Below are positions 53,990 through 58,297 of a stretch of DNA of 64,000 nt, in pieces; position 1 is the first letter of the stretch, and each line of letters starts with the position of its first letter. The position numbers and the translations under genes are program-made. The stretch covers positions 3,194,576-3,258,575 of the forward strand of contig OX639991.1 of the NCBI GenBank assembly GCA_951828585.1, in the 5' to 3' direction. Origin of the DNA: Longimicrobiales bacterium. GTDB taxonomy: Bacteria; Gemmatimonadota; Gemmatimonadetes; Longimicrobiales; Gaopeijiaceae. The notes beneath the pieces were generated by a model that saw only the letters and a program-made list of their open reading frames with translations, was not told the origin of the DNA and ran no database searches.

Positions 53990-54850
53990 TCAACGCAGCC
54001 TGAGCCCCCTCAGCACCACCAGGTTCTCCCTATCCGCGCTCACCCCGTCGTCGCCCTTCGGTGTCTCCAGCACCTTGGGCACCGCCCGGAACCGATCCGA
54101 GTTCATGAGACGGCGAAAGGGTTCGATCCCCAGCGTCCCCTTGCCGATGCTCTCGTGACGATCGAGGTGTGAGCCGAAGGCCGACTTCGCATCGTTGAGG
54201 TGGAAGAGCTCGATGCGATGAGTTCCGAAGGTGTCGTCGGCACGCAGCCACACGCCGTCGTAGTCGCCGCACAGGTCCATCCCCGCCACCCACGCGTGGC
54301 AGGTGTCGAAGCAGACGCCGACGCGGCCCCGGTGCGGTTCGGGGACCAGTTGAATGATCCGCGCCAGTTCCTCGAATGTCCCGCCGACCGAGGTCCCGGC
54401 TCCGGCGGTCAGTTCCAGCAGGACCCTTGGCCCGGCCGGCACCGCCTCGAGCGCCTCCGCAACCCCTGCCGCGTTCCGTTCGATTCCGCTCGCGCGGTCC
54501 CCGTCCGTGGCGTTGCCGGGGTGGGTCACCACCGCATTCAGACCCAGTATCGCGGCGCGCTCCAGCTCCCTCCCAAAGGAGTCCGCCGAGCGTCGCCACA
54601 GGGCGGGCTGGGGACTGGAGAGGTTGATCAGGTACGAGTCGTGGGCCGCCGTGTAGGCGATCTCGCGACCGGCCGCTTCCGCGCGAAACCGGGCGGCCGC
54701 GTCCTCGCCCAGGACGGGATCGGCCCACCGGTTGGGCTGTTTGGTGAAGATTTGAAAGACGACCGCATCGATTTCAGCTGCTCGACCCGGGGCGCGTTCC
54801 ACGCCGCCGGCTACCGATACGTGCGCCCCCAGTTCGTCAACGGTCGACAT
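53990..54850 (-). CDS. nfo: Endonuclease IV (AP endonuclease)
   Basis: 286 aa TIM-barrel, tri-zinc AP endonuclease that cuts DNA 5' to abasic sites in base-excision repair. Metal and family motifs: GAHVSVAGGVERAP, VVFQIFTKQPNRW, AAHDSYLINLSSP, VTHPGNA, LLELTAGAGTSVG, VGVCFDTCHAWVAG, FHLNDAKSAFGSHLDRHESIGKGTLG and VLETPKGD. The ATG at 54850 opens the fold. The gene is divergent from the S46 peptidase; the 255-base space holds an array of four TGTACA sites that may control it. Confidence 0.95.
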   Translation of the reverse strand: MSTVDELGAHVSVAGGVERAPGRAAEIDAVVFQIFTKQPNRWADPVLGEDAAARFRAEAAGREIAYTAAHDSYLINLSSPQPALWRRSADSFGRELERAAILGLNAVVTHPGNATDGDRASGIERNAAGVAEALEAVPAGPRVLLELTAGAGTSVGGTFEELARIIQLVPEPHRGRVGVCFDTCHAWVAGMDLCGDYDGVWLRADDTFGTHRIELFHLNDAKSAFGSHLDRHESIGKGTLGIEPFRRLMNSDRFRAVPKVLETPKGDDGVSADRENLVVLRGLRLR

Positions 54851-54948
54851 GGCGTCCCAACTTCCGCTTCCGCAGCCGGCTGGCAAGGGGACTCCGGCCC
54901 TCCTGGCAAGGGCTCCCCGGTCCCTCCAGGGTGGTGCGGATCCGATCT

Positions 54949-54990
54949 TGTACATGATATTGTACATAAATCTGTACATCTTCCTGTACA
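54949..54990. promoter_or_regulatory. Array of four TGTACA sites with exact 12-bp period
   Basis: The hexamer TGTACA, itself a palindrome, starts at 54949, 54961, 54973 and 54985, with AT-rich 6-base spacers. The array lies about 100 bases upstream of nfo and about 115 bases upstream of the peptidase gene, in the intergenic region they share. Known MerR-family B12 photoreceptor repressors (CarH, LitR) bind similar TACA-core direct repeats, though with an 11-bp period in the characterised cases. The identity of the binding protein here is inference. Confidence 0.75.
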
Positions 54991-55105
54991 GAATCCCCGA
55001 TCCGCCGTCCCTTGCCCACCCCCGCGCCCCGGTTCGACCTTTCCTCTCCCCGGCCGTAAGCGGGGGCACCACGCCAACCCGCCCACTACACGAGGACTCT
55101 GCCCG

Positions 55106-57427
55106 ATGCGCCTCTTCCAGACAACCGCGGCAGCCCGCGGACGAATCCACACATCGCTGGCAGCCCGCGGACAGAATCCTCCCGGCAAGACCCACACCCT
55201 GCTCGCCCTCGCCCTGGCCGCCGTCCTCGCGGCCTGCGCCACCGCCCCGCCCGCCCCCCCACCCCCCACCGACCGCGACGCTCCCCCTGCGAACGCGGAG
55301 CCCCCGGTCCGGACCGTGACCCCCGTCCCGGCCGCGGCCTCCGTCCCCCTCGCCACCCCCACCCCCCCGTCCACCTCCCCTTTCGACACCGTGCAGGCCG
55401 GCGCCTTCGACAACGGCAAGATGTGGACCTTCGACGCGCCGCCCACCGGGTACCTGCGGTCCACCTACAACTTCTCGCCCGACGAAGCGTGGTACGCCCG
55501 CGCCCGCCTCGGCGCCCTCAGGATCCCCAACTGCTCGGCCTCCCTGGTCTCGCCGCGCGGCCTGGTCCTCACCAACCACCACTGCGCGCGCGACTTCGTC
55601 ACGCAGGTGTCCACCGACGGCGAGAACCTCCTCGACGACGGCTTCTACGCGGCCACCCTGGCCGACGAACGCCCCCTCGAGGACTTCGAGGCCGACCAGC
55701 TCATCGAGATCGTGGACGTGACGGACGAGATCCGCGCGGCGGTCGACGCGGTGAGCGGCGCTCAGCCCCGGAGCGAGCTGCGCGACAGCCTCACCGAGGC
55801 CGTGGCCGAGCGCATTCAGGAAGAAAGGGGCGGCGAGGAGGCCGGGATCGAGGTCGAGGTGATCTCGCTGTACAACGGCGGCCTGTATTCGGCGTACATC
55901 TTCCGGCGCTACCCGCACGCCAGACTCGTCATGGCTCCAGAGCTGCAGCTCGGCTACTTCGGCGGCGATCCCGACAACTTCACCTATCCCCGCTACTCGC
56001 TGGACTTCGCATTCCTGCGCCTCTACGACGAGAACGGCCAGCCGCTTGAGACCGACGACCATTTCCGCTGGAGCGAGACCGGTGCCGCGGCCGGCGACCT
56101 CATCTTCATCATCGGGAATCCCGGAAGCACATCGCGCCTCCAGACCCTTGCCGAACTGGAGTTCCGCCGCGACGTGGAGATGCCGGCGCTGCTGGGCTTC
56201 CTCGACTCCCGGATCGAGGTCATCCGGAGGTACATGGCGGGACGCGAGGACGAGCCGGGGATCGACGAGGTGCGCAACTCGGTCTTCAGCCTCCTAAACG
56301 GGCAGAAGGCGTACACGGGGATGCTGCGGGGGCTGGAGGATCCGTATGTGCTCGCGCGCCGGGCAGCCGCCGAGGCCGACTTCCGCGACGCGCTGCAGGC
56401 CGATCCCGCGCTCGCGGAGGCCTACCTGCCACTCTTCGCCCAGATGGCCGAGCTGCAGTCCCGAAAGGCCGCCATGGCCGCCGAGTTCAACGCCTTCGCG
56501 GCCTTCGGCAACTCCGACTACGAGTCGTCCCTCATCCTGCGCACCCTGTCCACCTTCCAGTACCTCAACGCGCGGGCGCAGGGTGCCTCGCCGGAGGAAC
56601 TCGACGGGATCGCCGACGAACTGAGGGGCGTCACCAACCGGCCCCGCGAGCTCGACGAGGCGCTTCTGGCCGCCCGCTACCGGGACATGGTGGACGCATT
56701 CGGCGAGGACGACCCCTCGGTGCGCGCGCTCCTGGGCGGCCGAAGCGTGGAAGAGGCTGCCTCCGTGCTTATGACCACCTCGGCCATGGGCGATTCCGCG
56801 AACGCCGTTGACGCTGTCGTGGGGGGCATGCTGAACCCCGCTACCGAGCCGGCCTTCGCCTTCGTGCAGTCGCTCCTGGGGCGGTTCGGTCCCTATCAGA
56901 ACGTCATGTCCAGCGTGATCCCCGAAGAGGAGGCGATCGCCGCCGGCCTGGGCCGGGCGCGCTTCGAGGTCGACGGCACGCGCATTCCGCCGGACGCCAC
57001 CTTCTCGCTGCGCCTCGCTGACGGCGTGGTCACGGGGTACCCCTACAACGGAACTGTCGCCCCCACGCACACCACCTACTACGGCCTCTACGACCGGCAC
57101 TACTCCAACCCGGGCGCAGAAGAGTGGGCGCTTCCACAACGCTGGCTGAGCCCCTCGTCCGACTTCGATCTTTCCACGCCCCTCAACTTCGTGAGCACCG
57201 CCGACATCATCGGCGGGAACTCGGGTTCGCCGGTGGTCAACCGCGATCTGGAGGTCGTGGGCCTGGTCTTCGACGGCAACATCCAGAGCCTGCCGGGCGA
57301 CTACATCTACATGCCTGCGCTGAACCGGTCGGTCGCGGTGGACGCGCGCGGGATTATGGAGGCGCTGGAGGACATCTATGGAGCGGAGAGAATCGTTGAG
57401 GAGCTCACGGGCGGGCGCACTCGCTGA
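55106..57427 (+). CDS. S46 family dipeptidyl-peptidase, lipoprotein
   Basis: 773 aa. A lipoprotein signal is present (LLALALAAVLAACATAPP), then a long Pro/Thr-rich linker to residue ~95. The S46 serine protease follows: His in SPRGLVLTNHHCARDFV, Asp in YSLDFAFLRLYDENG and Ser in IIGGNSGSPVVNRDLEVVGLVFDGN. S46 enzymes release dipeptides from the N-terminus of peptides in the periplasm or at the surface, for amino-acid feeding. DPP7-like versus DPP11-like specificity is not settled by eye. The ATG at 55106 opens the signal peptide. Confidence 0.93.
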   Translation: MRLFQTTAAARGRIHTSLAARGQNPPGKTHTLLALALAAVLAACATAPPAPPPPTDRDAPPANAEPPVRTVTPVPAAASVPLATPTPPSTSPFDTVQAGAFDNGKMWTFDAPPTGYLRSTYNFSPDEAWYARARLGALRIPNCSASLVSPRGLVLTNHHCARDFVTQVSTDGENLLDDGFYAATLADERPLEDFEADQLIEIVDVTDEIRAAVDAVSGAQPRSELRDSLTEAVAERIQEERGGEEAGIEVEVISLYNGGLYSAYIFRRYPHARLVMAPELQLGYFGGDPDNFTYPRYSLDFAFLRLYDENGQPLETDDHFRWSETGAAAGDLIFIIGNPGSTSRLQTLAELEFRRDVEMPALLGFLDSRIEVIRRYMAGREDEPGIDEVRNSVFSLLNGQKAYTGMLRGLEDPYVLARRAAAEADFRDALQADPALAEAYLPLFAQMAELQSRKAAMAAEFNAFAAFGNSDYESSLILRTLSTFQYLNARAQGASPEELDGIADELRGVTNRPRELDEALLAARYRDMVDAFGEDDPSVRALLGGRSVEEAASVLMTTSAMGDSANAVDAVVGGMLNPATEPAFAFVQSLLGRFGPYQNVMSSVIPEEEAIAAGLGRARFEVDGTRIPPDATFSLRLADGVVTGYPYNGTVAPTHTTYYGLYDRHYSNPGAEEWALPQRWLSPSSDFDLSTPLNFVSTADIIGGNSGSPVVNRDLEVVGLVFDGNIQSLPGDYIYMPALNRSVAVDARGIMEALEDIYGAERIVEELTGGRTR

Positions 57428-57448: not shown

Positions 57449-58297
57449 GTGATCATTGGCCGACCCCGCCCGGGCCATCCGTTTCTGGCGGGCGCGCCGG
57501 TGCTGGCGGCGCACCGGGGTGGCGCGGGCCTGGCTCCGGAGAACACCATGACCGCGTTCCGGCAGGCCGTCGACGAGTGGGACGCCGACATGCTCGAGAT
57601 GGATGTGCGGCTGACCGCGGACGGGCAGGTCGTGGTCCTCCACGACGAGACTGTCGACCGCACCACCAATGGCACGGGGCCGATCCGCAACATGACCTGG
57701 GACGAGGTGCGGCGGCTCGATGCCGGCTACCGTTTCCGCGATGTGGCGGGGGAGTTTCCGTACCGGGCCCGGGGCGTGCGGATCCCGCTCTTCGACGAGG
57801 TGCTGGAAGAGCTGCCGCACATGCGCATGATGGTGGAACCCAAGGCGGCGGAGGCCGCCGGGCCCCTCGTCGAGGCGATCCGGGCGCGGGGAGCCGAGCA
57901 CCGGGTCCTGATCGGGGCTCTGTTCGAACGCACCCGCGAGAGCGCCCTGGGCTACGGGGGACCGTGGGGGGCGTCGCGCAGTCAGTTGATGCCCTTCTGG
58001 CTGCTGCACCGGATCCCCGGGATCGGCCGCCTGTACGTCCCGGCCGTTGATGCCTTCCAGGTGCCGGAGACGTCGGGGCGCTACCGGGTCGTGACGCCGG
58101 CGTTCGTGCGGGCCGCGCACCGGGCCAACATCCCCGTGCACGTGTGGACGGTGGACGACCCGGCCGACATGCGCCGGCTTCTGGAGTGGGGCGTCGACGG
58201 TATCCAGACCGACCGTCCGGACCTGCTGGCCGATGTGCTGACGGAGGTGGCGGGACGCGCGCCGGCCCCGGCCCGCGCAAAGGATGCAGGCCCATGA
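57449..58297 (+). CDS. Glycerophosphodiester phosphodiesterase
   Basis: 282 aa GDPD TIM barrel that hydrolyses glycerophosphodiesters to glycerol 3-phosphate and an alcohol. Catalytic blocks: LAAHRGGAGLAPENTMTAFRQAVD, DMLEMDVRLTADGQVVVLHDETVDRTTNGTG, IPLFDEVLEELP and the C-terminal VHVWTVDDPADMRRLLEWGVDGIQTDRPDLL. No signal peptide is evident, so it is probably cytoplasmic. The start is GTG at 57449. The stop overlaps tilS by ATGA. Confidence 0.92.
   Translation: MIIGRPRPGHPFLAGAPVLAAHRGGAGLAPENTMTAFRQAVDEWDADMLEMDVRLTADGQVVVLHDETVDRTTNGTGPIRNMTWDEVRRLDAGYRFRDVAGEFPYRARGVRIPLFDEVLEELPHMRMMVEPKAAEAAGPLVEAIRARGAEHRVLIGALFERTRESALGYGGPWGASRSQLMPFWLLHRIPGIGRLYVPAVDAFQVPETSGRYRVVTPAFVRAAHRANIPVHVWTVDDPADMRRLLEWGVDGIQTDRPDLLADVLTEVAGRAPAPARAKDAGP

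Follow-up and report, generated by a model that had tools for sequence, protein, structure and literature searches.

A conserved orphan array of four TGTACA palindromes beside nfo has the geometry of YefM-type antitoxin operators

In the window, that is, the whole stretch of 64,000 nucleotides from a Gemmatimonadota bacterium that was analysed, nfo and an S46 peptidase gene diverge from a 255-bp gap that contains four copies of the palindromic hexamer TGTACA, placed at an exact 12-bp period (Table 1). The array is real, conserved and orphan and, judged from the sequence, its geometry is that of YefM-type operators; its role as an operator is predicted. The reading that we favour, with a probability of about 0.4, is that a toxin-antitoxin complex of the Phd/YefM family would bind the array in trans, as an orphan YefM-type operator with four cores, and would gate nfo; the divergent S46 or GDPD gene may perhaps be controlled as well. 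We infer which protein binds, that its effect is repressive and not activating, and that stress is the signal.

Table 1. Features at and around the TGTACA array (positions in the window).
Feature	Position	Strand	Remarks
nfo, endonuclease IV-type AP endonuclease	53990..54850	-	ATG at 54850; AP_endonuc_2 E=6.6e-45
Putative promoter-like block TTGCC...GGAAGTTGGG, directly before nfo	54858..54886	-	similar in close relatives
Complete array, four palindromic cores, 12-bp period	54949..54990	.	proposed orphan YefM-type operator
TGTACA core 1, nearest nfo	54949..54954	.	same in G007, TGTACG in G019
TGTACA core 2	54961..54966	.	same in G007 and G019
TGTACA core 3	54973..54978	.	same in G007 and G019
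TGTACA core 4, nearest S46 gene	54985..54990	.	same in G007 and G019
Putative promoter-like block TTGCCC-N15-TTCGACCTTTCC, before S46 gene	55012..55044	+	immediately outside the array
S46 peptidase gene, divergent neighbour	55106..57427	+	ATG at 55106; Peptidase_S46 E=3.5e-166
GDPD-type phosphodiesterase gene	57449..58297	+	becomes divergent neighbour in G019

The four start positions and the exact period given in the original prediction were recovered unchanged, and the domain matches in Table 1 bear out both neighbours that it had named, nfo and the S46 peptidase gene. The G+C content of the window is 68.6%, and the 42-bp array is 69% A+T. Nine copies of TGTACA occur in the window, where 1.47 would be expected; the five outside the array are singletons. 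When 100 Markov-shuffled windows were searched for evenly spaced copies of any palindromic hexamer (period 9-15 bp), none contained four, and the maximum of three was reached once; about 1e-12 fourfold TGTACA runs with a 12-bp period are expected in 4.47 Mb. The spacing had been called unlikely by chance, and it is confirmed that the array is not a product of chance. The genome scan proposed for such repeats found a single other TGTACA-N6-TGTACA run, of three copies (C1:678796), in a pstS-like coding frame, where it arises because tyrosine recurs every four residues. Many scattered TGTACA arrays had been named as an outcome that would speak against the regulatory reading, and this one intragenic run is all that was seen. 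The complete 4.47-Mb genome, scanned with up to three mismatches in three cores, held no other intergenic site, and a genome-wide regulon was rejected. An accident of coding or composition, as in pstS or in viral genes, would be a hardly credible origin of the array: although the pstS-like genes of the genus and most of the 47 viral runs of four TGTACA are four-residue coding repeats, the array lies in a divergent intergenic gap, its encoded peptide would differ between relatives and its spacers are free to vary. Four cores were found in 47 viral contigs, for the most part as coding repeats (VQxx and the like), and these contigs were rejected as a guide to the binder. One viral contig (L359:411-464; G+C 55%) carries five TGTACA copies with a 12-bp period where no convincing gene is seen, between primase-like and ParB-like genes; unlike most viral cases, this is no obvious coding repeat.

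Among 118 relatives and a 395-genome sample of the phylum, three exact cores at 12 bp were found in only three genomes, all belonging to the genus of the window: the window genome itself (G000) and the array-bearing relatives G007 and G019. In G007, nfo is 87% identical and the four cores are intact; in G019, nfo is 86% identical and three cores are intact. Across the three species, 23 of the 24 hexamer columns are invariant against 4 of the 18 spacer columns (Fisher p=7.5e-7), and the G000/G007 pair alone gives p=0.0035 for the same comparison. In G019 the S46 gene is absent from the locus and the GDPD gene, normally downstream of S46, stands next to the array; nfo is kept there, and it is therefore the constant neighbour of the array. 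Since the hexamers were retained beside nfo while the spacers diverged and the S46 gene was lost in one relative, the array is under selection. The pattern is that of a protein-binding site under selection, the binding itself being putative. Conservation of the array in the same place in relatives, on which the original prediction had made its case depend, thus holds in G007 and G019 despite the diverged spacers, and the cooperatively bound regulator that it had proposed is the best reading of an array that is both non-random and conserved, as a predicted role. The array is absent from the other genomes of the genus, with the qualification that in G013, the sister of G019 in the nfo tree, the contig begins 145 bp before nfo. 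The reversed pattern ACATGT, in three copies at 12 bp, occurs in three members of the genus (G001, G004 and G020) and in no other sampled genome.

The array had been suggested to be a new operator architecture. This was too strong, as TGTACA at 12 bp is the operator of YefM/Axe antitoxins, in which the centres of the palindromes are 12 bp apart and other spacings impair cooperative binding (PMC7730913, PMC4803016, PMC3920265). Escherichia coli yefM-yoeB and Enterococcus axe-txe share with the array the palindromic TGTACA cores and the 12 bp from centre to centre, and the yefM operator of E. coli K-12, read directly, is TGTACA-ATGAAC-TGTACA, which matches the TGTACA-N6-TGTACA of the array letter for letter. 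The known operators comprise a long/short core pair and stand upstream of their toxin-antitoxin genes, whereas the array has four even cores and no yefM or yoeB gene adjoins it, its neighbours being nfo and the S46 (or GDPD) gene. The unusual part is four even copies without toxin-antitoxin genes. In 18 plasmid Phd/YefM antitoxin loci, drawn from several phyla and mostly yefM-yoeB, GTAC pairs are spaced at exactly 12 bp in 8/18 and at 13 bp in 2/18, and four GTAC cores are present in 2/18. Among yefM operators, those in the same genus and those on Deinococcus and Mycobacterium plasmids resemble the array in their paired GTAC cores but differ from it in the 13-bp spacing and the adjacent antitoxin gene. 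Several other Phd/YefM genes in the genus have pairs of CTAG or AGCT palindromes with a spacing of 12 or 13 bp; therefore, the layout is a habit of the family, and it is the TGTACA core that points to YefM. A yefM-yoeB locus on a Mycobacterium intracellulare plasmid (L366:140-220) carries four GTAC cores with a spacing of 13/11/13 bp.

The regulators first put forward as binders were CarH and LitR, so that the array would be an operator responsive to light and B12. CarH operators are 11-bp direct repeats of nnnnTnnACAn (PMC9304148), and LitR/PplR sites have the form T(G/A)TACA-N12-TGTA(C/T)A, for example TGTACA-N12-TGTACA, with an 18-bp spacing (PMC9758184). The array is likewise a tandem repeat with a TnnACA core, and TGTACA is contained in class II LitR sites (PMC9758184) and forms the half-sites of LitR, PplR and PmlR2 targets. 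The distances in the array, however, are 12, 24 and 36 bp, which correspond neither to the 11 bp of CarH nor to the 18 bp of LitR/PplR, and the genome has neither CarH nor any other MerR protein with a B12-binding domain. The search for such a protein returned two genes with MerR_1 matches, one TipA-type (TipAS domain) and one of 119 aa, both devoid of a B12 domain, and the sole B12-binding_2 match falls in a 1390-aa frame that is MetH-like, to judge by its length. The CarH/LitR assignment is thus not supported, and its probability is close to negligible.

In the array-less genome G003, the two promoter-like blocks stand almost back to back, and the array therefore sits in an insert. Both junctions of this insert are common to G000 and G007, so the state without toxin-antitoxin genes predates their split. 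A mobile element was ruled out, as no plasmid or phage matched the nfo-S46 gap. The insert, the YefM-type geometry and the 2-19 Phd/YefM-family genes per genome in the genus are consistent with a relic: a yefM-yoeB module once placed between nfo and the divergent gene may have been lost, leaving a functionless operator. This is improbable, because the cores outlived the spacers in species already sharing the arrangement without toxin-antitoxin genes, the hexamers being kept and the spacers changed also between G000 and G007. Moreover, no remnant coding sequence was seen, and there are four cores against the usual two.

A sigma-70 consensus scan gave no promoter and also missed the TTGCCC-N15 block on the S46 side, a block that several relatives also have in front of the S46 gene and G019 in front of GDPD. 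Neither promoter-like block is covered by the array, which is placed upstream of both, and this counts against the YefM-type model; the conserved S46-side block is 18 bp away, and core 1 is 98 bp from the ATG of nfo. A transcribed array could also form a long hairpin acting on RNA, and the G000 array with its flanks folds at -30.7 kcal/mol (z=-5.9). Such a role is very unlikely, however, given the position upstream of both blocks, the lack of an Rfam match, the loss of the pairing flanks in G019, and hexamers that are invariant rather than covarying.

For the YefM-type operator that we favour, the location between divergent promoters without toxin-antitoxin genes of its own implies that it would be bound in trans. 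One antitoxin dimer would occupy each TGTACA core, with neighbouring dimers touching through the 12-bp spacing, and a Phd/YefM-family antitoxin together with a YoeB/RelE-type toxin as co-repressor would coat the four cores and repress nfo; the divergent S46 or GDPD gene might be repressed as well. Because of the distances to the S46-side block and to the nfo start, repression would have to operate by spreading, bending or hindered upstream contacts; it would not cover a core promoter, and activation is the alternative. Under stress, proteases would remove the labile antitoxin, the array would empty and nfo would rise, and four cores would make the response steep. That a toxin-antitoxin repressor is in this way wired in trans to a base-excision repair gene, with stress-induced loss of the antitoxin switching on endonuclease IV, is a proposal that we regard as rather unlikely in its full form. 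The SavRS toxin-antitoxin complex of Staphylococcus aureus, which recognises paired palindromes at the promoter of its own genes and is a repressor of hla and efb as well (PMC5913840), may by analogy serve as a precedent for action in trans, although its core is ACTAGT and its targets are virulence genes, whereas the array has the core TGTACA and the neighbour nfo. The regulation of ordinary cell genes in trans by chromosomal toxin-antitoxin proteins is debated, with few clean cases. If the model is true, an antitoxin-type operator without its module before a DNA-repair gene would be a direct case in a little-studied phylum and would provide a simple link from antitoxin turnover to DNA repair. 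Should another protein be the binder, the array would still be a single-target, conserved putative operator of another nfo regulator.

The geometry is of the YefM type, but the gene content of the genome supplies no obvious binder. The sole yefM-type gene of the window genome is truncated at its 5' end; its product of 66 aa covers Pfam positions 31-73 of 74 and lacks the N-terminal part that holds the equivalent of E. coli YefM R10; the yoeB gene is intact. By contrast with G000, yefM is intact in the array-bearing G007 and G019. The 12 intact yefM genes that were fetched from the genus all encode arginines matching R10 and R31 of E. coli YefM, the DNA-contacting ones, and all 12 have upstream GTAC pairs at 13 bp rather than the 12 bp of the array. 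The truncation and the 13-bp operators of the genus are the main weakness of the YefM-type model. It also counts against the YefM-type model that G015 has yefM without the array, and that a TGTACA pair at 12 bp is missing upstream of every one of the 18 Phd/YefM-family genes found in the window genome. A search of the Phd/YefM-family members fetched from the three array genomes gave no antitoxin with its own TGTACA 12-bp operator; the nearest case is a phd-parE pair in which TGTACA copies are 18 bp apart (9-bp period). This pair (L320:2100-2702; G000 C1:3152099-3152701) is preceded by a 9-bp TGTA array, TGTACATAT TGTATACAT TGTACATAC TGTAGGCAT, and most of the orthologues that were fetched from the genus have retained repeats resembling TGTAnA with the 9-bp period. 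The truncated yefM stands immediately upstream of the intact yoeB (L321:1394-1863; G000 C1:1475393-1475862) and overlaps the end of an unrelated 193-aa ORF; the toxin gene is left here with an antitoxin gene that is deprived of its promoter and of the repressor (DNA-binding N-terminal) half.

The lack of an intact YefM in the window genome favours a different reading, in which the array would be a real operator of an unrelated dimeric repressor, a long-standing regulator of nfo in the genus with drifting half-sites, and the likeness to YefM would be convergence. This is possible, if doubtful. The frame TGT-N12-ACA upstream of nfo is also present in two other subclades: in G005, G008, G012 and G021 as TGTCAA-N6-TTGACA, in G002 and G016 as a 35-bp palindrome. 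In support of this reading, the frame has 6 matches where nearly every other spacing has 0-1 (6 for N7 as well), and no match upstream of nfo outside the genus. These 6 matches, however, amount to about two independent events, and the half-site sequences differ. Moreover, no candidate regulator gene was found, and none adjoins nfo, where most single-target regulators sit. The TGTCAA-N6-TTGACA dyads (L029, L030, L031 and L038) belong to another subclade, number one to three and lie at the nfo start codon or overlap it. The 35-bp imperfect palindrome upstream of nfo, TAATGTTAGCATGACATTATGTCGTGTCAACATTA in L024 and near-identical in L027, is A+T-rich in G+C-rich DNA.
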